From positions 1 to 64,000 of the IMG/VR virus record IMGVR_UViG_3300021962_000084: a stretch of 64,000 nt of DNA, one strand, 5' to 3'. The stretch comes from a virus. Shown in pieces: positions 37,039-59,906 of the stretch (position 1 is the first letter of the stretch; each line of letters opens with the position of its first letter). The translations under genes and the position numbers were made by a program. The notes beneath the pieces were generated by a model. The model was given only the letters and a program-made list of their open reading frames with translations. It searched no databases and had not been told where the DNA came from.

Positions 37039-40000
37039 ATGAGTAGTTTCATAGGTATTGACCCAAATGGTTTAAATCAAATAAGTTCTAGCGTAATATC
37101 ACTTTATGTTAGTGGAAGCCCTGTTATTAACGCTTCGCCAAAATCAGTAAGTATTGTTAATGCAGCAGCTTTTTCCGCTTCAATAATTGAAGTTAGTACA
37201 ATTGATTCTCCGGGTAGTTCTTCACTTGTAATAAGTGCAAACACACAAATAACAGGAGGACTTAACATTTCTGGATCTGTATCTGCATCTTTTTTAAGAG
37301 GAGACGGTAGTGGAATTACGAATATATCCGCTGAATCTATTGGTGACATTAATAGAATTAAATCAGGTTCAGCAATCGCTCAAATATCTCCAAACAGAGG
37401 TTTGGAAATTAATAAAGGTGTTACTATAAATGAATTTTTAATTCTAACTGGGAGTGCAAATATCAGTAGTAATCTAACAGTAGGTGGAAAAATTACAGCT
37501 ACTGAATTACATACAACATTTATTTCATCATCAATAATATATGCTACTGGTTCAAACAAATTTGGTGATAATGTTACTGATAGACAAGAAATTACTGGTA
37601 GTTTAAACATAAGTGGTTCGATAGTAGTAACCGGAGATACAATACCAACTGATAATACAACAAATGAAGTGTTGGTATTGAATACAACTACCGGTAGAAT
37701 TAGTAGAAGATTTGCAGCAGCAACTTCTGGTACTTCTGGTACATCAGGTACATCGGGAAGTAGTGGTTCAAGTGGAACTTCTGGCACATCAGGAACTTCT
37801 GGCACATCAGGAACTTCTGGCACATCGGGAAGTAGTGGTTCAAGTGGCTCAAGCGGAAGTAGTGGTACATCAGGAACTTCTGGTTCAAGCGGAACAAGAG
37901 GTACTTCTGGAAGTAGTGGTTCAAGTGGCTCATCTGGAACAAGCGGCTCATCTGGAACAAGCGGTAGTAGTGGTACTTCTGGGACAAGCGGCTCTTCAGG
38001 AACTTCTGGAAGTTCTGGTTCAAGTGGAAGTAGTGGAACATCTGGTTCAAGCGGTAGTAGTGGTTCTTCGGGAAGTAGTGGTAAAGATGGTTCAAGCGGC
38101 TCATCTGGAACTACTGGAACATCGGGTTCATCTGGAACTTCTGGTTTAACAGGAACTTCTGGTTCAAGTGGCTCTAGCGGAAGTAGTGGTGTAAGTGGTT
38201 CAAGTGGAAGTAGTGGAACTTCTGGTTCTAGCGGTAGTAGTGGTGTGAGTGGAGCAGGTGGAACTGCGGGTACATCTGGTAGTACAGGTACATCCGGCTC
38301 ATCTGGTATTTCTGGTTCAAGTGGCTCTAGCGGTAGTAGTGGAAGTAGTGGAACTTCTGGTTCAAGTGGTTCTTCTGGTTTAACTGGTGCTGGTGGTGGT
38401 AGTGGTTCTTCTGGTTCAAGTGGAAGTAGTGGCACAAGCGGAAGTTCTGGAACATCCGGTTCATCTGGAAGTAGTGGTTCATCCGGTACAAGCGGTTCAT
38501 CTGGAAGTAGTGGTATTTCTGGAGGTGCTGGTACAAGTGGTTCTTCTGGTACAAGTGGTTCAAGCGGAGTAAGTGGAAGTAGTGGGTCATCTGGGTCATC
38601 AGGTACTTCAGGTATATCTGGTTCATCTGGAAGTAGTGGTTCAAGTGGTTCATCTGGAACTAGCGGAAGTAGCGGTAAAGATGGAACAAGTGGTTCTGCT
38701 GGAACAAGTGGAAGTAGTGGAGTGAGTGGAAGTAGTGGTACATCTGGAAAAGATGGTACGGCTGGTTCGTCTGGTAGTAGTGGTTCGTCTGGTTCGTCTG
38801 GTAGTAGTGGAGCAGCAGGTACGAGTGGTAGTAGTGGAACTAGTGGCTCAAGTGGAACACGTGGTACTTCTGGTAGTAGTGGAGTAAGTGGTTCATCTGG
38901 AAGTAGTGGCTCATCGGGAACTAGCGGTTCATCGGGAACATCTGGGTCAAGTGGTACAACTGGAAGTTCTGGTAGTGGTGGTTCATCTGGCTCATCCGGT
39001 AGTAGTGGTTCAAGTGGAAGTAGTGGAAGTAGTGGTACAAGTGGCTCAAGTGGAAGTAGTGGAAGCTCGGGAACAAGTGGCACATCGGGAACTTCTGGTA
39101 CACAAGGTACATCAGGTTCTTCTGGATTATTAGCATTAACTGGTACAACTAATAATGGTGTAATCACATTAGATGGAACTGCACCAAATGGTACAGTTGA
39201 AGCAAATTTAACTTTTGATGGTACTACATTAGCAGTAACTGGTAACGCTACAATTAGTGGTAATCTTACTGTAAGTGGTACAACAACATATATTAATACA
39301 ACAACTTTAAATGTAGGTGATAATATCATCACATTAAATGCTGATTTTGCATCTGGTGCACCAACTGAAAATGCTGGTATTGAAGTAAGGAGAGGTTCAT
39401 CATCAACGGTTTCTTTCTATTGGAATGAATCAACTGATAGATGGTATGCAGATAATACATTAGAAGTAGCTGGTAACGTTGTTCTTAGTGGTACAATTGA
39501 TACGGGACAAGGAGCAACCGAAGTTTACTTAATGAACCAAAATATTAGAACTACGGATTCTCCAACTTTCGCAGGTTTAATATTGAATGGTACATTAGAT
39601 ATGAATAACAATGACATTACTGAAGTTAATGCATTGACATTTAATGATCCTGGTCCAAACGAAGGTATTAATTGGGCTGGTGGAAACCTTTGGAGAATAT
39701 ATGAATCTCCTGATGATTTAACAACAAACTCTGCTGGTAATTTACAAATAGTCCAAGGTACAACTAGGAGAGGAACTTGGGATACATCTGGTAACTACAC
39801 ACAAATTGGAAATATCTATGCAGATTCAATAATTGATAGAAATAATAACTCATATAATTTAGACCCAGCAGGAAGCTCGAATCTATATGGGTTAAGAATA
39901 TATAATGCATTTGATACAGCAACATCAGATGTTTATGCTAGTGTAAGAGTTATTAGAAATAATGGTTCTAATGCCGGTAATGATGGTATGTTTATTGGTT

Positions 40001-43000
40001 ATGGTAATGCAGGTGGTGGTATAACTAGAATATTTGGTGGTGGTGCAACTGGTGGAGCATTGGAAAAATACTCAACTTATACATATGAACCGGGTTCATT
40101 TAGAGCACCAATATTCTATGATTCTGATGATACAAACTATTATTTAAACCCAGCATCAACATCTGTTTTAAATACTAATGTTGTAAGCATACATAGATTA
40201 GATAGCAATTATGGTGAAAGATTATTTGGAATTTCTTTCCCGAATGGTACAGCTAACCAAGCATTTGATATACGAATAGGTAACGTATCTCTTTGGGGTT
40301 ATATTGAAGTTGAAATAACAGGAACATATTCATTCCAAAATACACCTGGTAAATTAACCAAAAGTTTTGCAATTGGTACAAATCCCGGTAATAACATCTA
40401 TGCAAATACAAGTAGAGTATCCGATGTTATGGGACCTATTGCAGATAATATTTCCATTGGAGAATTTGCATGGGATTCTGGAAATAGTACCTTTAGAATA
40501 CCAATTTCTCATATAGTTTCATCTGGAAACTCATACACTGTTAAAATAAGAGTGTTTAGCCATGGTGGTGGTGTAGGAAGTCATTTGGCATCAATGACAA
40601 TGTCACCAATATACACATTATCTGCATTAGCACAACATACCGCAGTAACATTTAATACAAATGTTTTTGTAAGTGGTGAGGTGAGAGGAACATTGTTTAG
40701 AGATATAGATGATAACAATTATTATCTAAATCCAAACAGTACTTCTCGTATTAGAAGAACTGATATTGTAGCAAGTGGAGCTGGATGGGATGACCAATTA
40801 AATCTTTACTCATCGGACCAAAGTAATAGATGGAATATCTTAACGGATAGTGGTGCATCAAATTATTTAAGATTTGCATATAATAATTCGGAAAGATTTA
40901 GAATGCAACCAAATGGAGATACCTATAACTTTGGTGCATTTTTAGCAGATATTTATTATGATAGAAACAATACAGCATATTACATTGACCCAACATCAAC
41001 TCAATCAATAAGAACTGTTGGTGATTGGAGAAGTGATTCATCTACATGGACAGGTGAATTTGCAGGTAAGATTCAATATCATAGTACTAACTGGTATTTC
41101 CAATACGCTGGTTCATTTATATTCAGAAATAGTGGAGGTTCAAACGTAACTTATGGTGATACATCTGGTAACCTTTGGGCAGTAGCATCAATGCGCTCTC
41201 CTGTTTTTTATGATAATGATGATACAACGTATAGAGTTGACCCTAATGGTAATTCGGTATTAGTAAACACATTTGCTAGTAGATACTTTACGCTTTACAA
41301 TAACTTTGGTGATACAACAAATAATGCACCTTGGTATGGATTGGGTGGTTCTAATGTTGGAGGACCTTTTGGTGGTTCTATGGTTCAATTAGCTGGTTAT
41401 TATGGCTTACGATTAAGAAGTGCAAACATAACTTTTGAATTAGATGGACCTAACTATGGTGCATCTTGGACTTGGACAAATAATAACTTTGCATCTGCGG
41501 CACAAGTAAGAGGAACATCTTTTTATGATTACAATAATACAGCATATTATTTAGACCCGAATGGTACATCTAACTTATATGATGTTTATTCATATTCTTA
41601 TAGAGGTAATGGTAACGTTGGTGGAACTGGAAACGCATCTTGGCATCCATCTGGTATTTACTCTGCTGGATATAACTGGTTGTATGGTGGTATCAATGGT
41701 GGTGGTAGTTCTGGTACAAACTTTAGTGATTTAAGAGCAAATATATTCTATGATTATAATGACACTAACTATTTTATAGACCCTAATACAACTGCAACTT
41801 CATTAAGAATAGCTGGTGGTATCAAACAAAGAAATATAGTTGGTAGACCTTACGCTGTTTGGGGTTCTAGTGGAACAACTGGAGCAGTAGTTATTAAATT
41901 CCCTGGTGGAATTGGTAACTATGGTATGATTCATGCTGTAATTGACATTTATGAATATAATGGAAGTGCGGCAGCAACCGTAATAGTTGGTGGACATAAC
42001 TGGAATGGTGCATGGTATAACTATAATGCAAACGTTGTAGGATATACTGATAAGCAAGTTAGAGTTGGTGTTAAAGATGGTAGATATTGTATCGTAATTG
42101 GTACTGGTGGTTCTTCTTGGTCTTATGGGCAGGTGGTTCTTCGTAAAATACAAAATGGTACATATTACGATGGAGTGATGGATGTTGCTGAAGGATATTC
42201 GGTAGCAATCGAATCCGATTCATATAGCTGGATTTCTGGTGACCTTCAAGTTCTTAGAAGTAGAGACATCTATGGTGTAAACTATGTACAAGCGCCAATA
42301 TTCTACGATACAAACTCAGCATATTTTGGAGATTTTGGTTCTGAAATAAGAATGCCTTACGCAAATGGAGGTACTATGAGATTGAGAACTAATACACATT
42401 GGGATTCTCAATCTGGTATTGACCTTATTGGTGGGGCTGGTGAATTCCGTATGAGTTCGGATAGTGGTAATCTTAATCTTAGAATTGATGGTTGGTTAAT
42501 TGCATACGATTATGTTCAGGGATTGGGAGCAATGTATTCTCCAATTTATTATGATAGTGATAACTCAGGATATTATACAAATCCTGCAGGATATTCTAAC
42601 ATGAACGAAGGTAACTTTGCTGGTAGAGTATGGTATAGCAACTATTTGGTAAGTAGGAATAGTGGTGGTATGATGGGTGATTACAATGTAAATGGTACAT
42701 CATCTAAAGTAATTTGGACTATTGGTGAATCTTGGCCAATCGGTAATATGTACGGATTGGGTTATGAGTATGGAAGTGGATATGACCATCACTTAGCATT
42801 GAGAAATAATGGTACAACTTACTCTCGTTTTGGATTTGCCGGTGGAGCATTTATTGGTGGTAACTTAACATTAGGTTCTGATTTATATGCATATAGATTT
42901 TACGATAGAGATAATACAGGATATTATGATGACCCGGCTGGAACATCTCGTAGAAACTATGATGTAACTAATAGAATTAAACTTGTTAATAACGTAAACA

Positions 43001-46000
43001 ATGAACCTCGTTGGGATTTCTCAGCTTATGTAGTTGAGGCACAACATTGGTATGGTAACAATTCATCTATGACAATGTATATGGGTGAGGGTAGTAATAC
43101 AATTCAAATACCTGGTAGTGGTGGTATTAGACCTCAACTAATGTATGATTATAATGATACATCATATTATGTTGACCCTAGAAGTACAACTAATTTATAC
43201 GCAATTACTGATTATACTCGTAGAGCAGCATTTAACTTAGGTAGAATGCTTACAACCCGTAGAGATATTACATCAGACCAAAACCATTGGACTGGTACGT
43301 GGGGTTGGGGTACATCTTATGGTACGTGGGCAAGTGCTTGGGAAGCTGGATTTAGTGGATGGGATATTTGGGGTAGTGGAACTGACCACCCGCAAGGTGG
43401 TGGATATGTTCATGCTCAAGGTATTGTTTCTGGTCAACACTATGCAACATCTGGTGGTGGAACTGCTTATGGCTGGCAAATGGTTGGTGCTGGAGATGCT
43501 GATAGCCGTTGGTGGTTAAGAGGTAAGTGGGGTGGTACTGTTCGTCCGTGGTATGAGATAATGCTGTATGGTAGAAACATCGGTGGTGGTACATTCTATG
43601 CTGGATATTGGTACGATGGAAATGATACTGGATATTATGTAGACCCTAATGGTTCTACACAATTAAGAACGGTGTATGCAAACGACTGGTTCAGACCACA
43701 AGGATGTACTGGTATTTATTTACAATCTTATGATAAAGGTATTTGGTCTCCTGAATGTGCCGGAAACACTTATGGCACTGTAAACACTTATGGTAGTGGT
43801 AGAAATGGATGGTACGGATGGGGTATTAGTTCTCGTTATGTATTAATGACAACAACCGGCGATAACGTTGGTATGCATGATAATAGCAGAAGTTGGATTT
43901 GGTATATGAGTGGTGGTGACCTTAACTTATATTGGGCAGGTAACCGTAGAGCGTTAATTACCGATTACGGAGTGTATTCCGATAACCAAGTTAGAGCAGC
44001 TATATATTATGACCACAATACTTCATTTTATTTTAATGGTGATGGTGATAGTAGATGGAATGGCTTGGATGATTACTCTAAAATGAGAATTGGATTGACC
44101 GGCAGAGGTAACTTCCGTAGAAACGATTATACATCAGATACTGCTTATTGGGTTGGTTCAATGGGTTGGGGTACAACTGATATGAATTCAGTAGCCTCTT
44201 GGGGCTCCGGCTTTATTGATTCTTGGTCAAACCCTGGAAACCAACCTAGCGGAACAAGCCATTGGGTTGGTACACAAGCGTTCCACTATGCGTATGGTGG
44301 AAATAGTAACACTGGTTGGCAGTTGGTTGGAGGTCCGATAAGTAACTTAAGGTTTAGAAATGCCTGGGGTGGTTGGTCTGGATGGACAACTGTTGCAATG
44401 CATGACCGTAATGATGGTAGTGGTGGTTGGTTATATGCTGGTGGATACTATGATGCAAATAATACTGGATATTATGTAAATCCTGACTCCACATCTGAAT
44501 TTTATAGAGTAAATGTAGCAGAATATCTATATGCTAGAAATGGTTGTGGTAGAATTTATCTTTCAGGTAACTTACACATAGATTCTTTCTGTGGAAATGA
44601 CATTTATTTACAATATTATTCAAATAGACCAATAAGAATGTATTATTGGTTAGAAATGAATGGTTATGACATTTATGGTGTTAGTGGTTTATATGCAACT
44701 ATAATGTATGACCGTAATAATACGGGATACTATATAGACCCAGCATCTTCATCGCAACTTCACTATGTGATGGCAAACAACTGGTTTAGACCGCAAGGTT
44801 GTACTGGTGTTTATTGGAATGATTATGGACATGGTATTTGGTCTCCTGAATGTGAGGGTAACCCGTATGGACATATCGCAACTTATGGTGGTGGTAGAAA
44901 CGGATGGTATGGGTATGGTGTAGGTAGTAGATATACCTTAATGAGTACTTTAGGTCATAACTTTGGTCTACATGATACATCTTATGGTTGGATTTGGTAT
45001 ATGAGTGGTGGTGAATTACAAATGTACTATAATGGTTCTAGAAGAATGGTTACTACCGGATGGGGTGTTTATGTAGACCAATATTTAGAAGCTGGTTCTT
45101 CGTTAAGAGCACCAATATTCTATGATAACCAAGATACTGGATACTATTTAGACCCACATAATACCGATGACCAAGGTTTAAGAATGAGAGGTGGTGCACT
45201 TCACGGACCTAACTGGTGGTGGGGAGCTTATCTAAGAGTTGGTACAAATAGTAGAGTTGATAGCTGGGCAAGTATGTTCACATCAAATGGTAACTTACAC
45301 ATTGATTCTCGTAATGGTTACCCAATGTATCTTAACTGGCATAATGGTAACGTTGTTTATGTTGAAAACTCAATAGAGGCACAAATCTTCTATGATAGAA
45401 ATGATACTGGATACTATTTTGGTTCAAGTTCTGGTGATGGTAGATTTAGATACACTAACACAAATGGTGGTTTCTCACAATCAAACAACCAATTCCAATT
45501 TAACGTAAACAGAGGTTACTATAATGGTAGTACCAATACAGGTAACTTACAAGCATATTCGGAAGGTAATAACTCGGCATTCTTCTCTTGGCATAAGACG
45601 GGTGTATATGCAACAAATATGGGATTGGATGGTGATAACGTTATTCGTATTGGTGGATGGTCTATGTCAGCAAATAGATGGCAATTAGACCCATCTGGTA
45701 ATATGTATGCAGCTGGTAACGTTGTAGCATATTCATCTGATGAAAGATTGAAAGAAAATATCACTACAATTCCTAATGCATTAAAAATGTTAAACGAATT
45801 GAGAGGTGTTTATTTTGATTGGAAACCTATTGTTGACAGTTTAGGATTTTATCCTGAAGATAGACATGATATTGGAGTTATTGCACAAGAAGTTGAAAGA
45901 GTAATACCACAAGCTATTAAACCAGCTCCGTTTGATGCACTTTCTGATGGTAAATCATTATCTGGACAGAATTATAAAACTGTACAACTTGAAAAAATTG

Positions 46001-46107
46001 TTCCTGTATTAATTCAATCTGTAAAAGAACAACAAAAAATTATCGAAGAACAAAGTTCGGAAATTGAAAAATTGAAAAAAATAGTTTATGAATTTATAAA
46101 CAAATAA
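37039..46107 (+). CDS. Giant fibre/adhesin, 3022 aa, with collagen-like tract and S74 intramolecular chaperone
   Basis: Residues 1-228 carry short fibre modules, including ISSSIIYATGSNKFGDN. Residues 229-698 are collagen-like. An adapter (GTTNNGVITLDGTAPNG) and a beta-rich part follow to about 920. Residues about 930-2800 hold about 17 YD modules (FYDRNNTGYYIDP...S) that link lectin-like domains rich in Trp, Tyr and Gly. The C-terminal 123 residues are a peptidase S74 chaperone of endosialidase: YSSDERLKENI, with the Ser-Lys pair at S2900/K2905, then FDWKP, HDIGVIAQEVERVIPQAI and a coiled-coil end (QKIIEEQSSEIEKLKKIV). In this family the chaperone drives trimerisation and then cuts itself off before the Ser (family knowledge). 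Both key residues are present, so self-cleavage is expected. The likely role is the main receptor-binding fibre. Confidence 0.9.
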   Translation: MSSFIGIDPNGLNQISSSVISLYVSGSPVINASPKSVSIVNAAAFSASIIEVSTIDSPGSSSLVISANTQITGGLNISGSVSASFLRGDGSGITNISAESIGDINRIKSGSAIAQISPNRGLEINKGVTINEFLILTGSANISSNLTVGGKITATELHTTFISSSIIYATGSNKFGDNVTDRQEITGSLNISGSIVVTGDTIPTDNTTNEVLVLNTTTGRISRRFAAATSGTSGTSGTSGSSGSSGTSGTSGTSGTSGTSGTSGSSGSSGSSGSSGTSGTSGSSGTRGTSGSSGSSGSSGTSGSSGTSGSSGTSGTSGSSGTSGSSGSSGSSGTSGSSGSSGSSGSSGKDGSSGSSGTTGTSGSSGTSGLTGTSGSSGSSGSSGVSGSSGSSGTSGSSGSSGVSGAGGTAGTSGSTGTSGSSGISGSSGSSGSSGSSGTSGSSGSSGLTGAGGGSGSSGSSGSSGTSGSSGTSGSSGSSGSSGTSGSSGSSGISGGAGTSGSSGTSGSSGVSGSSGSSGSSGTSGISGSSGSSGSSGSSGTSGSSGKDGTSGSAGTSGSSGVSGSSGTSGKDGTAGSSGSSGSSGSSGSSGAAGTSGSSGTSGSSGTRGTSGSSGVSGSSGSSGSSGTSGSSGTSGSSGTTGSSGSGGSSGSSGSSGSSGSSGSSGTSGSSGSSGSSGTSGTSGTSGTQGTSGSSGLLALTGTTNNGVITLDGTAPNGTVEANLTFDGTTLAVTGNATISGNLTVSGTTTYINTTTLNVGDNIITLNADFASGAPTENAGIEVRRGSSSTVSFYWNESTDRWYADNTLEVAGNVVLSGTIDTGQGATEVYLMNQNIRTTDSPTFAGLILNGTLDMNNNDITEVNALTFNDPGPNEGINWAGGNLWRIYESPDDLTTNSAGNLQIVQGTTRRGTWDTSGNYTQIGNIYADSIIDRNNNSYNLDPAGSSNLYGLRIYNAFDTATSDVYASVRVIRNNGSNAGNDGMFIGYGNAGGGITRIFGGGATGGALEKYSTYTYEPGSFRAPIFYDSDDTNYYLNPASTSVLNTNVVSIHRLDSNYGERLFGISFPNGTANQAFDIRIGNVSLWGYIEVEITGTYSFQNTPGKLTKSFAIGTNPGNNIYANTSRVSDVMGPIADNISIGEFAWDSGNSTFRIPISHIVSSGNSYTVKIRVFSHGGGVGSHLASMTMSPIYTLSALAQHTAVTFNTNVFVSGEVRGTLFRDIDDNNYYLNPNSTSRIRRTDIVASGAGWDDQLNLYSSDQSNRWNILTDSGASNYLRFAYNNSERFRMQPNGDTYNFGAFLADIYYDRNNTAYYIDPTSTQSIRTVGDWRSDSSTWTGEFAGKIQYHSTNWYFQYAGSFIFRNSGGSNVTYGDTSGNLWAVASMRSPVFYDNDDTTYRVDPNGNSVLVNTFASRYFTLYNNFGDTTNNAPWYGLGGSNVGGPFGGSMVQLAGYYGLRLRSANITFELDGPNYGASWTWTNNNFASAAQVRGTSFYDYNNTAYYLDPNGTSNLYDVYSYSYRGNGNVGGTGNASWHPSGIYSAGYNWLYGGINGGGSSGTNFSDLRANIFYDYNDTNYFIDPNTTATSLRIAGGIKQRNIVGRPYAVWGSSGTTGAVVIKFPGGIGNYGMIHAVIDIYEYNGSAAATVIVGGHNWNGAWYNYNANVVGYTDKQVRVGVKDGRYCIVIGTGGSSWSYGQVVLRKIQNGTYYDGVMDVAEGYSVAIESDSYSWISGDLQVLRSRDIYGVNYVQAPIFYDTNSAYFGDFGSEIRMPYANGGTMRLRTNTHWDSQSGIDLIGGAGEFRMSSDSGNLNLRIDGWLIAYDYVQGLGAMYSPIYYDSDNSGYYTNPAGYSNMNEGNFAGRVWYSNYLVSRNSGGMMGDYNVNGTSSKVIWTIGESWPIGNMYGLGYEYGSGYDHHLALRNNGTTYSRFGFAGGAFIGGNLTLGSDLYAYRFYDRDNTGYYDDPAGTSRRNYDVTNRIKLVNNVNNEPRWDFSAYVVEAQHWYGNNSSMTMYMGEGSNTIQIPGSGGIRPQLMYDYNDTSYYVDPRSTTNLYAITDYTRRAAFNLGRMLTTRRDITSDQNHWTGTWGWGTSYGTWASAWEAGFSGWDIWGSGTDHPQGGGYVHAQGIVSGQHYATSGGGTAYGWQMVGAGDADSRWWLRGKWGGTVRPWYEIMLYGRNIGGGTFYAGYWYDGNDTGYYVDPNGSTQLRTVYANDWFRPQGCTGIYLQSYDKGIWSPECAGNTYGTVNTYGSGRNGWYGWGISSRYVLMTTTGDNVGMHDNSRSWIWYMSGGDLNLYWAGNRRALITDYGVYSDNQVRAAIYYDHNTSFYFNGDGDSRWNGLDDYSKMRIGLTGRGNFRRNDYTSDTAYWVGSMGWGTTDMNSVASWGSGFIDSWSNPGNQPSGTSHWVGTQAFHYAYGGNSNTGWQLVGGPISNLRFRNAWGGWSGWTTVAMHDRNDGSGGWLYAGGYYDANNTGYYVNPDSTSEFYRVNVAEYLYARNGCGRIYLSGNLHIDSFCGNDIYLQYYSNRPIRMYYWLEMNGYDIYGVSGLYATIMYDRNNTGYYIDPASSSQLHYVMANNWFRPQGCTGVYWNDYGHGIWSPECEGNPYGHIATYGGGRNGWYGYGVGSRYTLMSTLGHNFGLHDTSYGWIWYMSGGELQMYYNGSRRMVTTGWGVYVDQYLEAGSSLRAPIFYDNQDTGYYLDPHNTDDQGLRMRGGALHGPNWWWGAYLRVGTNSRVDSWASMFTSNGNLHIDSRNGYPMYLNWHNGNVVYVENSIEAQIFYDRNDTGYYFGSSSGDGRFRYTNTNGGFSQSNNQFQFNVNRGYYNGSTNTGNLQAYSEGNNSAFFSWHKTGVYATNMGLDGDNVIRIGGWSMSANRWQLDPSGNMYAAGNVVAYSSDERLKENITTIPNALKMLNELRGVYFDWKPIVDSLGFYPEDRHDIGVIAQEVERVIPQAIKPAPFDALSDGKSLSGQNYKTVQLEKIVPVLIQSVKEQQKIIEEQSSEIEKLKKIVYEFINK
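37725..39130 (+). repeat. Collagen-like tract, about 156 triplets
   Basis: Uninterrupted Gly-X-Y, mainly GSS and GTS with a few GKD, GVS and GRG-type triplets. Unlike the 3646-residue fibre it has no GLDGTFFG interruptions. Confidence 0.9.
37774..37827 (+). repeat. Three 18-bp tandem repeats in the collagen tract
   Basis: The unit GGAACTTCTGGCACATCA occurs three times in a row, the last copy with one change (final G). It encodes GTSGTS with codons that differ from the 18-bp unit in the fibre gene at 1618. Confidence 0.85.
39829..45420 (+). repeat. About 17 YD modules
   Basis: Each copy encodes a 15-20 residue motif such as IFYDSDDTNYYLNPASTSVL or SFYDYNNTAYYLDPNGTSNLY. The constant part is YD-x-(N/D)-(N/D/T)-T-x-Y-Y-x-(D/N)-P. 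Copies lie between larger variable domains. Confidence 0.8.
43210..45120 (+). repeat. Segmental duplication of a two-domain unit
   Basis: A unit from about 43210 to 44030 is repeated from about 44071 to 45120. Both contain a WG-rich domain (TWGWGTSYGTW / SMGWGTTDMNS) followed by a domain with CTG(I/V)Y, GIWSPEC.GN.YG and IWYMSGG. The second copy has an extra YD-containing insert. Confidence 0.8.
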
Positions 46108-46723: not shown

Positions 46724-49024
46724 ATGGCAGAAAGAATCGTATCACCTGGCGTATTCACAAGAGAAAATGACCTATCCTTCTTAGCGCAAGGAGTAGGAGA
46801 AATTGGAGCAGCATTCGTAGGACCTTTTAAGCAAGGACCTGCATTCGTTCCAACTATTGTGAGAACACAATCGGAGTTTGAAGAAATCTTCGGAACACCT
46901 GACGGAACTTATTATACTGAATATGCAGTACAAAACTATCTAAGAGAAGCTGGAACAGCAACAATTGTAAGAGTAGCGGGAATTGGTGGATACCAGCAAG
47001 CAGCTCCTTTAGCAATTATGGCATCTGGTTCTGCTGGATTAGGACAAAAAATGATTGGTGTATTATTTAACACATCAAATGGGTTTCAAACTTTTGGATT
47101 TACAGGAGCAACTATTTCTGATACTTTAGCTAGTTCTGGTTCATTTGCAGTATCTGCATCTGGATTATTCAATAGTGCATCTATTCTTCCATCAGCAACT
47201 AATGACCTTTCTGATGTTTGGGGAGAATCTCCATACGGAACTAAAGCAGCTTATGTATATGCATATTTTGAAGATTCAACTTTAAACTATACAGGTTCAG
47301 CTGTAAGTGAAACTGTAATATCTGCACAAATTCTTCCAACACAAAATTTTGCATTAGATGCAAAAGAAGCTGAAACTCCAATGGTTAAATCTCAAGCAAT
47401 TTCTGGTGAAAGATTTGACCTTTTCAAATTTGTAACTTTAGGACATGGTACATTATATAACCAAAAGTTAAAAGTTGGTATTTCTAATGTTAAAGCAGCT
47501 GGTGAAGATGGTTCAACCGATTATTCAACATTTACTTTAACCATTAGAGGATATTCTGATACCGATAAAAGAAAGACTGTATTAGAAACATATAATAATG
47601 TAAACTTAGACCCATCATCTCCAAACTACATAGCTAAGAGAGTGGGTGATAGATACCTTACAATCGACACATCAGGAAAAATTACTGAAAATGGTGACTA
47701 TTCAAACAAATCAAAATTCGTAAGAGTTGTGGTTTCTGAACCAGGTTCATTCCCAGTATCAGCAGCACCGTTTGGACATGGTGCATATACCAATCCTATT
47801 TATTGTGGTAATGCTACAATAGCTGCTAAAGTTCCTTCGGTTACTTATGTAACAGCATCTGCTAACAATACAGCATCATCTCCAATTTATTATTCTGGAT
47901 TTGATTTCACTTCAATTGATAATACTCAATATTTGAAACCAATTCCTGTTGATGCAGAAACTGGAGCAAACGCAGTATTCGCATTTGATTCTCAATTATC
48001 ATATCAAATGACAGGTTCTAAATCTGATGATATGGTTAAGAGACAATTTGTATTAGCATTCCAATTTGGATTTGATGGTACTAATCCAACTATAAAACCT
48101 GCTAAAGCTGGTGAAACTGGTTGGGGTAACTCAAATACGCAAGGATTCAATTGTTCAAACGCATCAGCAAGTGGTTCAGTAGCATACACAAAAGCAATTA
48201 ATGCTGTATCTAATCCTGATGAGTGGGATATTAACTTAGTTGTAACTCCTGGTATTGTTAGAGAACTTCACCCATCTATTACTCAAAAAGTAATTGATAT
48301 GGTAGAAGATAGACAAGATTGTTTCTATATTGCTGACTTTACTGATTACAACGCATCAATAACTGTAGCAACTGAACAAGCAGCTGAAGTAGATTCTAAC
48401 TATGTTGGTACTTACTTCCCTTGGGTTAAGACAGTGGATAACAACACAAATAAATTAACAACTGTTCCTCCATCAGTTTTACTTCCAGCGGTTTACGCTC
48501 AGAACGATAGATTGGCGGCAGAATGGTTCGCACCTGCTGGTTTAAATAGAGGTGGTATCATTGGAGCAGTTAGTGTATTGAATAGATTAACACATTCTGA
48601 AAGAGATACTCTATATGAGAACAAAGTAAACCCAATCGCAGCATTCCCTGGACAAGGTATTGTAGCATTTGGACAGAAGACATTGCAAGATAAGGCTTCA
48701 GCATTAGATAGAATCAACGTAAGAAGATTACTTATCAACTTGAAGAAGTTTGTAGCATCTACATCTCGTTTCTTAGTATTTGAACAAAATACTTCAACAA
48801 CTAGAGCAAGATTCTTAAACACTGTGAATCCTTACTTAGAGGCAATTCAACAAAGACAAGGGTTATACGCATTCAGAGTTGTAATGGATGAAACCAACAA
48901 CACACCGGATGTAATTGATAGAAACATATTAGCAGGACAGATATTCCTACAACCGGCTAAGACAGCTGAATTCATCGTAATTGATTTCAACATCTTACCA
49001 ACTGGGGCATCTTTCTCCGCATAA
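46724..49024 (+). CDS. Tail sheath protein, T4 gp18-like
   Basis: A 766-residue protein that forms the contractile sheath around the tail tube. The N-terminus is diagnostic: RIVSPGVFTRENDLSF, then GEIGAAFVGPFKQGPAFVP, and FEEIFGTPDGTYYTEYAVQN with LREAGTATIVRVAGIGG. The C-terminal third holds the handshake/core domain: PSVLLPAVYAQNDR, then WFAPAGLNRGGI, RLTHSERDTLYENKVNPIA, FGQKTLQDKASALDRINVRR and a C-terminal strand AEFIVIDFNILPTGASFSA. The length is near that of T4 gp18 (659), with a somewhat larger middle insertion domain (residues about 105-470) rich in Ser/Ala. Its own terminator-promoter junction, a leader and a Shine-Dalgarno site suggest strong expression. The tube gene follows 53 bases later. 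Confidence 0.95.
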   Translation: MAERIVSPGVFTRENDLSFLAQGVGEIGAAFVGPFKQGPAFVPTIVRTQSEFEEIFGTPDGTYYTEYAVQNYLREAGTATIVRVAGIGGYQQAAPLAIMASGSAGLGQKMIGVLFNTSNGFQTFGFTGATISDTLASSGSFAVSASGLFNSASILPSATNDLSDVWGESPYGTKAAYVYAYFEDSTLNYTGSAVSETVISAQILPTQNFALDAKEAETPMVKSQAISGERFDLFKFVTLGHGTLYNQKLKVGISNVKAAGEDGSTDYSTFTLTIRGYSDTDKRKTVLETYNNVNLDPSSPNYIAKRVGDRYLTIDTSGKITENGDYSNKSKFVRVVVSEPGSFPVSAAPFGHGAYTNPIYCGNATIAAKVPSVTYVTASANNTASSPIYYSGFDFTSIDNTQYLKPIPVDAETGANAVFAFDSQLSYQMTGSKSDDMVKRQFVLAFQFGFDGTNPTIKPAKAGETGWGNSNTQGFNCSNASASGSVAYTKAINAVSNPDEWDINLVVTPGIVRELHPSITQKVIDMVEDRQDCFYIADFTDYNASITVATEQAAEVDSNYVGTYFPWVKTVDNNTNKLTTVPPSVLLPAVYAQNDRLAAEWFAPAGLNRGGIIGAVSVLNRLTHSERDTLYENKVNPIAAFPGQGIVAFGQKTLQDKASALDRINVRRLLINLKKFVASTSRFLVFEQNTSTTRARFLNTVNPYLEAIQQRQGLYAFRVVMDETNNTPDVIDRNILAGQIFLQPAKTAEFIVIDFNILPTGASFSA

Positions 49025-49077: not shown

Positions 49078-49566
49078 ATGGCAGAAATATTAGAGTTTGA
49101 CAAGATGTTCTATACGAACTTCGAACCTAAAATGAAGAATCGCTATATTATGGAGTGGGACGGTGTTCCTGGCTACATGGTAAAAGCAGCGGCAAGACCT
49201 TCAATTCAATTTGAAAAGGTAACTTTAGACCACATAAACATAAAAAGACAATTGCAAGGTAAAGGTGAGTGGCAAGATATTACTGTTACCCTTTATGACC
49301 CAATTGTACCATCAGCAGCTCAATCTGTTATGGAGTGGGTACGTTTAGGTCATGAATCAATTACTGGTAGACGTGGATATGCGGACTTCTATAAAAAAGA
49401 TATAGATTTCTATATGTTAGGTCCTGTTGGTGATAAAATTGAGCAGTGGAAAATAAAAGGTGCATTTATCACATCAGCTAACTTTGGAGATGTTGCATTT
49501 GATTCTAACGAACCTGCAACAATCGAATTAACATTAGCTTACGATTACGCAATCTTAGAATTCTAA
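49078..49566 (+). CDS. Tail tube protein, T4 gp19-like
   Basis: A 162-residue protein, the same length as T4 gp19 (163). It stacks as hexameric rings to make the inner tail tube. Key stretches: FEPKMKNRYIMEWDGVPGYM, VKAAARPSIQFEKVTLDHIN, KGEWQDITVTLYDPI, then VMEWVRLGHESITGRRGYAD and a C-terminal NFGDVAFDSNEPATIEL with LAYDYAILEF. The position directly after the sheath and before the chaperone and tape-measure genes is the standard order. The gene ends in a terminator, so it can be made in larger amounts than the downstream tail genes. Confidence 0.95.
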   Translation: MAEILEFDKMFYTNFEPKMKNRYIMEWDGVPGYMVKAAARPSIQFEKVTLDHINIKRQLQGKGEWQDITVTLYDPIVPSAAQSVMEWVRLGHESITGRRGYADFYKKDIDFYMLGPVGDKIEQWKIKGAFITSANFGDVAFDSNEPATIELTLAYDYAILEF

Positions 49567-49684: not shown

Positions 49685-50497
49685 ATGGCAGAAGTTAATA
49701 TTACGCAACAACCATCTACTCCAAAAGTAGATAATAGAAAATTTGAATTCCCAACCGAAACAATCGAATTACCATCGAAAGGGTTGGGTTATCCAGAATC
49801 ACACCCTTTAAAGAAAGGTACAATTGAATTAAAATATATGACAGCAAGAGAAGAAGATATTCTTGCTAACCAAAGTCTTATCAAAAAAGGTATGGTATTG
49901 GATAAGTTATTTGAATCAGTAGTAGTTGAGCCTGGTGTAAATCCAAACGATATATTGGTTGGTGATAAGAATGCAATCTTAATGGCTACTCGTATTTTAG
50001 CCTATGGACCTGAATATGACGTAGAAATTACTGACCCATTTACATACGAAAAACAAAAAGAGATAATTGATTTATCAAAAGTACAAACTAAAGATATTAA
50101 TGAATCTCTTTTAAATTCATCTAATAAATATAAATTCACATTACCGGTAAGTGGTAAAGAAATTGAATTTAAATTATTAACGCATGGTGATGAGCAGGAG
50201 ATTAATAGAGAGTTACAAGCTTTGGAAAAATTAAATAAAAATAGTGGGGCATCATTTGATGTTACAACTCGTTTAAAATATATGATTGTATCAGTTGATG
50301 GAAATTCTGATAGAGGGTATATTAATAAATTTGTAATGAATGAATTTTTAGCAAAAGATACAAAATCATTTAGAGCCTATGTAAGAGAAATAAGTCCTGA
50401 TTTGGATATGAAATTTACATTTACATCTAATATAACAGGTGAGACGGAGGCACTTGATATACCATTTGGGATTGGCTTTTTTTACCCTACCACCTGA
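49685..50497 (+). CDS. Tail assembly chaperone / gp26-like baseplate hub-type protein (short product)
   Basis: A 270-residue protein of the T4 baseplate (gp26) family by pattern: KFEFPTETIELPSKGLGYP, then IELKYMTAREEDILANQSLI, KKGMVLDKLFESVVVEP, and ILVGDKNAILMATRILAYGP. The gene sits between the tube and the tape measure, where tailed phages keep their tail-assembly chaperones. In that position a longer product is usually made by ribosomal frameshifting. Here the frame stops at 50497 as GIGFFYPTT, while the next frame continues with conserved-looking protein to 50696. ATG 49685 is chosen because the TATTTATA motif and an A-rich leader lie just before it. In T4 itself gp26 and gp51 are separate genes, so the exact functional equivalence is uncertain. 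Confidence 0.8.
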   Translation: MAEVNITQQPSTPKVDNRKFEFPTETIELPSKGLGYPESHPLKKGTIELKYMTAREEDILANQSLIKKGMVLDKLFESVVVEPGVNPNDILVGDKNAILMATRILAYGPEYDVEITDPFTYEKQKEIIDLSKVQTKDINESLLNSSNKYKFTLPVSGKEIEFKLLTHGDEQEINRELQALEKLNKNSGASFDVTTRLKYMIVSVDGNSDRGYINKFVMNEFLAKDTKSFRAYVREISPDLDMKFTFTSNITGETEALDIPFGIGFFYPTT

Positions 50498-50696
50498 TTA
50501 TAGAACCCAACTACATTCGCAGATTTGGGATATGGTTCAACATGGTAATGGATTTACTTGGTCAGATGTTTACTTCATGCCAACTTATCTTAGAAGATTC
50601 TATTTTAATAAATTAGTAGATTTGAAGAAAAAAGAGGCTGACGAAATAAAAAAAGCAAAAGCAAAAACAAAAACACCTAAAGTGAGGATACGATAA
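50439..50696 (+). CDS. Tail assembly chaperone, second frame (probably reached by +1/-2 frameshift)
   Basis: An open frame, +1 relative to the chaperone gene and overlapping its last 59 bases. The useful part starts near 50484: TLPPDYRTQLHSQIWDMVQ, then GFTWSDVYFMPTYLRRFYF, NKLVDLKKKEADEIKK. The 'h..i......FTW.ev..mP..lRr.y...l' pattern with a charged tail is typical for the C-terminal half of tail-chaperone fusions (family knowledge). A GTG at 50439 could start it separately, but no ribosome site precedes it, and the overlap segment has no sign of its own conservation. A fusion through the T run at 50477-50483 would give a product of 336 residues (+1) or 337 (-2). The stop codon lies inside the terminator hairpin. 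Confidence 0.75.
   Translation: MRRRHLIYHLGLAFFTLPPDYRTQLHSQIWDMVQHGNGFTWSDVYFMPTYLRRFYFNKLVDLKKKEADEIKKAKAKTKTPKVRIR
50474..50486 (+). other. Candidate ribosomal frameshift site
   Basis: In the chaperone frame the codons read GGC TTT TTT TAC, and a stop follows four codons later. Seven T (50477-50483) let the Phe tRNA re-pair after a +1 or a -2 slip, and both lead into the downstream frame (ACC CTA CCA). No obvious strong pseudoknot was seen by eye downstream. Confidence 0.6.
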
Positions 50697-50746: not shown

Positions 50747-50962
50747 ATGTCTAAGCAAATACAAAAAGAAGGATTATTTGGCGCAGCTTCAAATTTTGTT
50801 AATTCATTTTTTGATGGATTAAAAGCCAATACAACAAATAAAGCATTGGAAAAGGCAAGACAAAATCAACTTCCACAGGATATAGTAGATATTATGGCTA
50901 AAATTCAAGCAGATAGTGATAAACTACGTGACGAAATAAAAAAATATAGCAAATATAAATAA
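50747..50962 (+). CDS. Small protein before the tape measure, 71 aa
   Basis: No family recognised. The N-terminal half has an amphipathic segment (LFGAASNFVNSFFDGLKAN). The C-terminal half is strongly charged and helical (LPQDIVDIMAKIQADSDKL, then RDEIKKYSKYK). It is followed after 8 bases by the tape-measure gene, whose N-terminus is also a long helix. It could be an N-terminal piece or a partner of the tape measure, for example a plug or a hub-binding segment (inference from adjacency). The two frames are different (a stop at 50960), and no slippery site is visible between them. The start is clear: it is the first ATG after the promoter-like motif. Confidence 0.7.
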   Translation: MSKQIQKEGLFGAASNFVNSFFDGLKANTTNKALEKARQNQLPQDIVDIMAKIQADSDKLRDEIKKYSKYK

Positions 50963-50970
50963 TAATATCT

Positions 50971-53535
50971 GTGGAAAGAGATAGAGTAGAACTACTAAGA
51001 ACGATTGCGGAATTAAAAGTAAATGAAGAAACTTTACAAAGAAGTATAAATGCGGGTGCCGCTGGTCTAAATGTTCATCTACAAACTCAAAGAAGATTAA
51101 TTGCCGAAGCAGCAGAAGAATTAAAAAAAGTAAATAAAGAACGATTACAAGGATATAAAGCTCAAGAAGACCAAAACAAATCGTTGGGTTCTATGTACAA
51201 ATCTTTATCAGATTTGGAACAAAGAAGAATGATACAAACTATTGCAAGTGACTCAATAACTACTGACCAGGAGAAAACTTTAAATAGAATGGCGGAAATA
51301 AATAGGGATTTAGCCCAAACAAGCATTTCCGATGTAGTTGCAAAACAATCCTTAAATGAAGAATATAAAGATTTATTAGATTCATTGAATGGTGTTCAAG
51401 GAATAGACCAGCAAATACTTGATAATTTAGATGCTCAAAATAGATTGGCTGAAAATTACTCTAATATGACAGATGGTCAAAAAGAGCAATTGAAAGCACA
51501 ATTGGATGTTTATGATGGTATTAATAAAGCTCTTTATGGTATATTAGATACCGCAGCAACACTAACATCTGGTCCTGCTGGATTTTTTGGTACTGTTTTA
51601 ATTGGCGCAGGTATGTTGGCCAATAAAATGGGAGAAGTTCGTTCTCAATTAGGTGGTCTAAGTGAAGCTGGTACAACCGCTTTAGCATTTTTAGATGATA
51701 ATGCAGTAGCTAATGCAAAGGAATTAGCGGCCCAATTTGGTGGTATGAATAATGTTTCTGGAGAATTGCAAGCTTCAATTTCATTAATATCGGCAAATAT
51801 GGGTATTAGTGGTGTTGAAGCAGCATCATTAGCAGGTTCATTTGCAAGATTAAATGATGGTAGTGAAGAAACAGCACTAAACCTAACAAAAGCAACGCAA
51901 GAATTTGCAATGCAAAATGGAATAATACCATCTGATTTAATGGCTGATTTAGCAAATTCAGCAGAAGAATTTGCATTATTTGGAAAAGATGGTGGTAAGA
52001 ATATAATTGCAGCAGGTGCGGCAGCTAAGAAGATGGGTGTTGATTTAAAAACAATGTCCGGAATTGCTGACAACCTTCTTGATTTTGAAACATCTATTAC
52101 AAAGGAGTTGGAATTAGGTGCTTTATTGGGTAAAGATATTAATTTGGATAAAGCTAGACAATTGGCTTATTCTGGTGATATAGCTGGTGCAACTAAAGAA
52201 ACATTAAGTGCGTTGGGTGGTATCGATGGATTTAATCAAATGGATTACTACTCAAAGAAAGCAACTGCAGAATTATTAGGTACTTCCGTAGCTGAACTTC
52301 AAAAGATGGTTAGTGCTGAAGAAGAAGCTGCAAGAATGGCAGGTACTATTGGTGGACAATTCAGTTTAGCTGGTGAAGCCATAGATGCTGGATTAAACAA
52401 ATATTTGGGTACATCATTAGAAGCTTTAGGTGGTATGGTGATGGCTGGTGCACAATTAGGTGGTTCTTTTGCACAAATGGGATTTGATGTAAAAGGTATG
52501 GCATCCAAAATACCAATTATAGGTAGATTATTTGGTGGAGGTGGAGCAGCACCATCTCCAATTCCAAGTCCAGCACCCGGTCCTGGTGGAGGTCCAATCC
52601 CACCTGTTCCTGAAGGAGGTGGTGGTGGATTAACAAGTTTAGCAGCAGGATTGAAAGAAATGGGTAGTGCAAAAGTTTTATTTGGAGCACTAAACCTTAT
52701 ACCTACTGCAGCTGGATTAGCTCTTATGGTTATTGGTATTCCATCAATGATGGCGCTTGGTGCATTTGGTGCTAATGCCGGTATTGGTTTGGAATTTATT
52801 GGAATTGGTTTACAAGCTATGGGAACTGGTACTGCGTTTGTTGGCGCATTAACATTATCTGTTGCAGCTGCTGGGTTTGCTTTAATGACTGCTGGAGCAA
52901 TTGGATTGGCAGCTGTTGCATTAGGTGGTGTTGGTGCTGGAATTGGATTAAGTGCTTTGGCCGCGGGATTAACAGCAATAGGTACAGCTGCAGCAACAGG
53001 TCTTCCATTCTTAGGCGTTGCTTTAATTGCGGCATTTGGTGTATCTTTAATACCTTTAACATTTGCTTTGAGTTTACTAGCACCGCTTGTTACCTCAATT
53101 GGAAATGTAATTGTAGGTGTTATAACAGCAGTTGCTGGTGGTATTTCAACAATAATTGGTAGTATAGCACAATTTATGACACAAGTACTTCCATTGTTTA
53201 GTTTAGAAAATGCAGCTGGTTTATTGGCAATGGCTGCTGGATTTGGAGCATTATCATTATCATTGATGGGATTTGCTATGGCATCGATTATGGCTATTCC
53301 TGGTATGATTGCCGTTGGTGCATTCTTAGCATTGGGTGGTGGTGAGTTATTAGGAGGTGGTGGTGAAGGTGGCGAAGCTGGTGGGTCTGATATGGACGAG
53401 TTAATAAATGAAATTAAAGGGCTGAGAGCAGATTTAAATGCAGGTAAAATAGCAGTTAATATGGATGGCGCAAGTGTTACAGCAAGAGTATCATCTTATG
53501 TTGATAGAAGTAATAAAAATTCATACGCTAAATAA
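50971..53535 (+). CDS. Tail tape measure protein, 854 aa (GTG start)
   Basis: It sets tail length and leaves with the DNA at infection. Residues 1-190 are coiled-coil helices (RDRVELLRTIAELKVNEET, RRLIAEAAEELKKVNKERL). Residues 190-525 are Ala/Gly-rich helices. A Pro/Gly linker follows (about 528-550, PSPIPSPAPGPGGG). Residues about 570-795 are a long run of hydrophobic segments such as LALMVIGIPSMMALGAFG and GLPFLGVALIAAFGVSLIPL, with the usual look of the membrane-inserting part of tape measures. The C-terminus has GGGELLGGGGEGGEAGG, then DELINEIKGLRADLNAGKI. GTG is the only usable start, because an in-frame stop lies at 50956. The stop overlaps the next ATG (TAATG). Confidence 0.88.
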   Translation: MERDRVELLRTIAELKVNEETLQRSINAGAAGLNVHLQTQRRLIAEAAEELKKVNKERLQGYKAQEDQNKSLGSMYKSLSDLEQRRMIQTIASDSITTDQEKTLNRMAEINRDLAQTSISDVVAKQSLNEEYKDLLDSLNGVQGIDQQILDNLDAQNRLAENYSNMTDGQKEQLKAQLDVYDGINKALYGILDTAATLTSGPAGFFGTVLIGAGMLANKMGEVRSQLGGLSEAGTTALAFLDDNAVANAKELAAQFGGMNNVSGELQASISLISANMGISGVEAASLAGSFARLNDGSEETALNLTKATQEFAMQNGIIPSDLMADLANSAEEFALFGKDGGKNIIAAGAAAKKMGVDLKTMSGIADNLLDFETSITKELELGALLGKDINLDKARQLAYSGDIAGATKETLSALGGIDGFNQMDYYSKKATAELLGTSVAELQKMVSAEEEAARMAGTIGGQFSLAGEAIDAGLNKYLGTSLEALGGMVMAGAQLGGSFAQMGFDVKGMASKIPIIGRLFGGGGAAPSPIPSPAPGPGGGPIPPVPEGGGGGLTSLAAGLKEMGSAKVLFGALNLIPTAAGLALMVIGIPSMMALGAFGANAGIGLEFIGIGLQAMGTGTAFVGALTLSVAAAGFALMTAGAIGLAAVALGGVGAGIGLSALAAGLTAIGTAAATGLPFLGVALIAAFGVSLIPLTFALSLLAPLVTSIGNVIVGVITAVAGGISTIIGSIAQFMTQVLPLFSLENAAGLLAMAAGFGALSLSLMGFAMASIMAIPGMIAVGAFLALGGGELLGGGGEGGEAGGSDMDELINEIKGLRADLNAGKIAVNMDGASVTARVSSYVDRSNKNSYAK

Positions 53536-59510: not shown

Positions 59511-59902
59511 GGGGATGTGATGGCATTTGATTGCAATGCGAATAGTAGTATCACACGTAGTGGGATGGGTTCTCTCACCACTTTAATCTCGGAATCAAAC
59601 AATAACCGACGTAGAATTATCTACTTGGAACTTCGAAGATGCTATGGCATTTGTAGGAGCTTACGATTACGCTGTAGCAGCCTAATCTCCTCCCGCATCA
59701 CTCGTGGGATTTAAATAGAAGTGAACAAACCGGAGCATTACTTATCGGCTCCCTAAAACTGATAGGTTGGTGGAAACGCTGAACTAACCATTCGGCCCCA
59801 ATTATTTTGGAAAGTTAATAAGATTAAACTTTATCCTAAACGTGTAATTCGTTGGTATTACGATTACTTTGTAAGACACGGGTTCGAATCCCGTCATCTC
59901 CA
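59511..59902 (+). ncRNA. ssrA: Transfer-messenger RNA (tmRNA)
   Basis: A 392-base one-piece tmRNA, the ribosome-rescue RNA that acts as tRNA-Ala and then as a short mRNA for a degradation tag. The 5' GGGGATG (59511-59517) pairs with CATCTCC (59895-59901) to form a 7-bp acceptor stem; the discriminator is A59902, and CCA is not encoded. The T arm is ACGGG-TTCGAAT-CCCGT (59878-59894). Helix P2 is seen as GTAGTATC (59545-59552) with GGTATTAC (59854-59861) and ACACG (59553-59557) with CGTGT (59841-59845). The D-loop region TGGCATTTGATTGC has the usual tmRNA look. The tag frame ends at the TAA at 59683. Downstream, GGAGC/GCTCC with ACTTATC/GATAGGT forms a plausible pseudoknot. It has its own promoter and terminator. 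Phage-coded tmRNAs are known but uncommon. Confidence 0.9.
59611..59685 (+). other. tmRNA tag reading frame
   Basis: The frame ends in TAA (59683-59685). The coded tag ends AFVGAYDYAVAA. If translation resumes near GAC/GTA (59608-59613), where E. coli would have its resume codon about 90-100 bases from the 5' end, the tag has 24-25 residues. If it resumes at GCA (59647) it has 12. The end is AVAA where most bacterial tags have ALAA. The resume codon cannot be fixed by eye. Confidence 0.6.
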
Positions 59903-59906
59903 CAAC

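Follow-up and report, generated by a model that had tools for sequence, protein, structure and literature searches.

How a tail gene whose reading frame stops close to a run of seven T's might also encode a longer protein is the question raised by a locus in the 64-kb stretch of viral DNA analyzed here (the window), which lies within a 69.8-kb virus record. The zero frame of this gene ends GGC TTT TTT TAC CCT ACC ACC TGA, and at the slip region TTTTTTTACCC (positions 50477-50487) the +1 frame, read as GCT TTT TTT ACC CTA CCA CCT GAT TAT, continues into a conserved helical domain of 70 residues (Table 1). The open reading frame (ORF) carrying this domain spans 50439-50696, with a stop codon at 50694-50696 and a GTG at 50439 as its sole start. 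A preliminary description of the window had recorded both the proximity of the zero-frame stop to the T run and the need for a shift of +1 or −2 to enter the second frame, and the reading frames of the window agree on both counts. The X XXY YYZ heptamer typical of −1 frameshifting is absent, since a C precedes the run and the extension lies in the +1 frame. We consider it very probable that this is a programmed +1 frameshift site yielding a short and a long form of a tail assembly chaperone.

Table 1. Features of the tail gene region, in window coordinates
Feature	Position	Strand	Basis or remark
Tail sheath gene	46724..49024	+	phrog_23, E 1.5e-69
Tail tube gene (gp19 family)	49078..49566	+	phrog_4542, PF06841
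Short form, zero-frame CDS, tail assembly chaperone (T4 gp26/gp51 family), 270 aa	49685..50497	+	
Predicted frameshift product, long form, 336 aa	49685..50696	+	conceptual translation only
Slip site TTT TTT T (then AC CCT)	50477..50483	+	
+1-frame C-terminal extension, T-like domain, 70 codons + stop	50484..50696	+	
Zero-frame stop TGA	50495..50497	+	
Small ORF, 71 aa, between chaperone and tape measure	50747..50962	+	
Putative tape measure protein, 854 aa, GTG start	50971..53535	+	position

The product of the zero-frame gene matches phrog_150 (baseplate hub) with an E value of 8.1e-9, a significant profile match that places it in the phrog_150/PF12322 family of T4 gp26/gp51; its score against PF12322 (23.6 bits, E 4.6e-5) slightly misses the curated cut-off of 24.5. 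The short form and the extension were folded as two separate AF2 models. For the short form (pLDDT 88), the best of the 876 chains compared was HK97 gp13 (2ob9; Z 5.6, 80 residues, 3.7 Å) and the second was YqbN (3klu; Z 5.1, 84 residues, 3.6 Å), both modest matches (Z<8). The HK97 chaperone match covers residues 15-107 and the YqbN match residues 145-238, which are different halves of the model, and this suggests that the short form may be built of two chaperone-like halves. A Foldseek search of the PDB returned nothing significant for the short form. The extension was modeled as a three-helix domain (pLDDT 83), for which structural comparison returned no credible match. The gene order is tube, chaperone, tape measure, with the sheath and tube genes recognized by profile and the tape measure gene by its position and by the tape measure annotation of its counterpart in Flavobacterium phage immuto; the 854-aa ORF itself has no family match in PHROG and Pfam profile searches. 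A counterpart of the 71-aa small ORF is found at the equivalent position in Microcystis phage Mel-JY01. The phrog_150 match and the place between tube and putative tape measure bear out the earlier identification of the gene as a tail assembly chaperone, here of the T4 gp26/gp51 type, and the modest predicted-fold matches point the same way.

Close homologs were detected by tblastn in immuto, Mel-JY01, and huge-phage assemblies, and scans of viral and genome contigs produced hundreds more. The two-frame layout is present in all 116 nonredundant relatives, which come from independent metagenomes and share ancestry, and in the isolates immuto and Mel-JY01. At least 60 codons are open from the site in the +1 frame of all 116 relatives, in the −1 frame of 7, and in the zero frame of none. 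Past the zero-frame stop, the +1 frame of these relatives shows a pN/pS of 0.25, compared with 1.40 for the zero frame and 1.09 for the −1 frame; upstream, the value for the zero frame is 0.28. For 38 of the 116, the stretch of the +1 frame from its upstream stop to the site lacks any ATG, GTG, or TTG, and the conserved segment FF[TG]L..[DN]Y starts at the slip site itself. The second half had been described from the window as conserved-looking and without a good start of its own, and the coding constraint on it and the missing starts uphold that view; an overlapping second frame that is constrained and, in these 38 relatives, has no start of its own is the arrangement of G/GT-type genes. Eight contigs in which the +1 frame was short or cut by the contig end were excluded from the 116, and one of them, L006, is a true exception that uses −1. 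In a later, unfiltered set of 196 relatives, the +1 extension was found in 193. Extensions in the +1 frame also occur in Streptomyces phages BRock and LuckySocke and in the SP-15 group.

For the family, the open frame, the pN/pS values, and the missing starts in relatives exclude both a sequencing error and an independent gene. Homopolymers are error-prone, and the preliminary description had allowed for an error in the T run that would restore a single frame. This is ruled out by the 116 of 116 relatives and the isolates that share the layout: it recurs across hundreds of contigs of independent origin and in the genomes of isolates, among them variants that have no long homopolymer, and the probability that we attach to a sequencing or assembly error is close to nil. 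That the C-terminal part is instead an independent gene, with translation beginning at a start of its own or reinitiating past the stop, would accord with the GTG at the head of the +1 ORF in the window, with the database annotation of Mel-JY01 and immuto, and with the two genes of T4, but it does not account for the 38 relatives in which no start precedes the site or for a conserved segment that begins exactly there. In two contigs, L445 and L450, the C-terminal domain does form an ORF of its own, whose ATG lies a few bases past the zero-frame stop, and in both the slip site is lost (TTCTTGTAT, TTCCTTTGGCCA). Overlapping frames thus go with a conserved T run, and the two contigs that lost the run have acquired an ATG, a pairing of site loss with start gain that is expected if the site connects the frames. 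Relatives that lack the T run and have the two parts as separate genes, which had been named in advance as evidence against a frameshift, therefore exist, but only as L445, L450, and T4, and they support the role of the site. We regard a separate gene in the window as very unlikely, and L445 and L450 as an apparent natural replacement of frameshifting by restart.

The composition of the site bears on the direction of the shift. In 112 of the 116 relatives, TTT encodes both Phe residues, where codon use (75% TTT) predicts about 56%, and none of the 116 has a T before the run, against 59.5 expected from synonymous codon use; after collapse to 33 lineages the count is 0 against 13.7 expected. Among the 196 sites of the unfiltered set, 155 have TTTTTTT followed by GG, AC, AT, or TC, 25 have TTTCTTTGG or TTTCTTTAC, 6 have TTCTTTTGG or TTCTTTTAC, 3 have TTTCTATGG or TTTCTATTC, and the remainder are single other forms. 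A T precedes the site in 3 of the 196, and because the run is broken by C in all three, these are not T_TTT_TTY heptamers. Re-pairing of the P-site tRNA one base downstream is permitted at 193 of the 193 sites with a +1 extension, where the P-site codon and the next base are TTT T, TTT C, or CTT T. A −2 ribosomal frameshift at the T7 run of the kind used by phage Mu, which would insert one extra Phe, would account for the near-invariance of TTT as the first Phe codon, and the window, whose T7 run permits it too, shares with 158 of the 196 nonredundant relatives the five consecutive T's on which tRNA-Phe in the P site could move back by two bases and pair again. However, a cognate −2 slip is impossible at 35 of the 193 same-frame sites (TTTCTTTGG, TTTCTATGG, TTCTTTTGG, TTCTTTTAC, and similar forms), whereas a +1 slip is possible at all of them, and a −2 shift is in our judgment unlikely. 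Transcriptional slippage on the T7 run, producing mRNAs shortened by one base or lengthened by two, would be in keeping with the strong conservation of the T homopolymer. Slippage of this type would favor longer runs, yet the runs here stop at 7-8 and a preceding T is avoided, and the extension is kept at sites with only three or four T's (TTTCTTTGG, TTCTTTTGG); these three- and four-T variants argue against RNA polymerase slippage, which we hold to be about as poor a prospect as a separate gene. The natural variants TTTCTTTGG, TTTCTATGG, and TTCTTTTGG permit a +1 slip on a Phe codon and neither a −2 slip nor homopolymer slippage. This comparison of related sequences supports +1 ribosomal slippage over −2 as the probable route, so that of the two shifts originally proposed the +1 is favored.

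In the mechanism that we propose for the +1 shift, most ribosomes would read TTT TTT TAC CCT ACC ACC and terminate at TGA, giving the 270-aa form. In a minority, tRNA-Phe on the P-site UUU would slip one base forward and re-pair with UUU, after which ACC CTA CCA and the following codons would be read to give the 336-aa form with the C-terminal helical domain and the predicted junction ...PFGIGFF-TLPPDYRTQ.... The slip could take place with the Phe codon at 50477-50479 or the one at 50480-50482 in the P site, and the +1 product, GFF-TLPPDY, would be identical either way. Among relatives, TTCTTTT sites would need the second codon and TTTCTA sites the first, so both positions seem usable. We infer the slippage itself, its minority frequency, the P-site codon, and a role in tail assembly from this arrangement and from known systems: the two forms probably act as those of lambda G/GT do, coating the tape measure and recruiting tail tube subunits, and by that analogy the short form would do the coating and the long form would bring the tube subunits (PMC5009743).

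No stimulator was found at the site, which counts against the proposed +1 shift. A conserved downstream RNA fold was not found over 16 sequences (mean z −0.6, only three below −2), and a search for an upstream Shine-Dalgarno-like element revealed no conserved column pattern beyond that due to encoded G and V residues. The A-site codons in the family are TAC or TGG, neither of which is a known slow codon. The +1 frameshift site of RF2 (prfB) is CUU_U (PMC10274946), at which the P-site tRNA likewise slips one base forward, and the CTT T of the TTTCTTTGG group comprises the same four bases. RF2, however, has a stop codon in the A site and a Shine-Dalgarno-like stimulator, and the window family has TAC or TGG in the A site and no conserved element of that type. 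Few bacterial programmed +1 shifts are known to be conserved to this degree.

Homologs that use a −1 shift were identified in the cyanophage (Kyanoviridae) S-SM2, in the jumbo phages 121Q, RaK2, and PA5oct, in Munch, Atu_ph07, and RAS14, and in cyanophage-like contigs. Their N-terminal part is homologous to that of the window family (profile match probability 99.8%), and their C-terminal domain matches the window extension (profile probability 96%, E 2e-9). The site is T_TTT_TTC in 77 of 78 nonredundant −1 users and T_TTT_TTT in the other, and the −1 extension is 57-74 aa long. In public records of the cyanophage and jumbo-phage gp26 homologs examined (L181-L189 and L191-L273), this extension is given as a separate hypothetical protein or omitted. 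These homologs thus resemble the window family in having a homologous N-terminal part, a homologous C-terminal domain, and an identical junction at FF, but they shift by −1 and always have a T before the run, whereas a T is never found there in the +1 relatives (0/116). Two contigs close to the +1 group, L351 and L352, carry a −1-frame extension at AAT TTC TTC TGG without a good heptamer, and L006 (LR756511.1, a 595-kb phage) has GGT TTT TTC followed by a 73-codon −1 extension, the end of which resembles the C-terminal domain.

The cyanophage extension matches phrog_634 (E 3e-29), which is the C-terminal part of T4 gp51. Both gp26 and gp51 of T4 are in phrog_150; gp51 reaches its end and includes phrog_634, and gp26 lacks this C-terminal part. 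The window gene and T4 gp26/gp51 belong to a homologous protein family, but T4 encodes its two proteins in distinct genes, one on each strand, and the window has a single gene that a +1 frame overlaps. Because hhalign of the window family against single T4 gp26 or gp51 sequences was uninformative, the link to T4 is made through phrog_150 and phrog_634. A tree of 49 rows places the window in one cluster of 25 +1 members (88/67), with long branches elsewhere, and the direction labels need three changes, the minimum possible being two. These comparisons indicate that the direction has switched one or more times in the history of this gene family, and among the sequences compared the −1 and +1 types can be told apart by the base before the U run. 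For the wider proposal that one chaperone gene has repeatedly switched its route to the long form (−1, +1, adjacent genes with restart, or two genes), with the base before the U run (U or not U) deciding the direction, we consider the chances to be evenly balanced. A very common T4-related phage group would use +1 in a gene whose homologs in cyanophages and jumbo phages use −1, which offers a natural series for asking what sets the direction of a frameshift and for seeing how a phage gene trades decoding tricks yet keeps both proteins.

The prevailing view is that long-tailed phages generally use G/GT-type frameshifting, with T4 as the exception, and tail chaperone shifts of −1, +1, and −2 have each been described in one phage or another (PMC5009743). 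Lambda gpG/gpGT is made by a −1 shift at a classical heptamer (PMC5009743); the shift in the window is +1 at UUU UUU U, and the two are likened by layout, with no sequence relation claimed. The chaperone of the haloarchaeal myovirus HSTV-2 is probably reached by +1 and that of phage Mu by −2 (PMC5009743); both belong to different phage groups and, from their descriptions, resemble the window in entering the +1 frame of a tail chaperone. Pakpunavirus Adele and the Andersonviridae, also likened here by description, share with the window a myophage chaperone frameshift at a T run, but theirs is a −1 shift at GTTTTT (PMC12846349). No published +1 shift in the T4-type chaperone family was found in the open literature. 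A 2022 study by Vladimirov, Gautam, and Davidson appears from its title to concern a different mechanism in T4. Tail chaperone frameshifting is known; what seems to be new is that a +1 version is conserved in T4-type phages and that a single base apparently switches the direction.

Two further features of the window lie on either side of the region in Table 1. Upstream, a 3022-aa ORF (37039-46107, + strand) contains a long collagen-like SSG/TSG repeat followed by repeated fibre-like segments, and its C-terminal SSDERLKENI motif is similar to the intramolecular chaperone domains of tail spikes. Downstream, the window carries a phage-borne tmRNA gene (59511-59905, + strand; Rfam RF00023, 73 bits). 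The tag given by ARAGORN, VNKPEHYLSAP, is probably wrong; an upstream frame reads GAYDYAVAA followed by TAA, which resembles normal tags.
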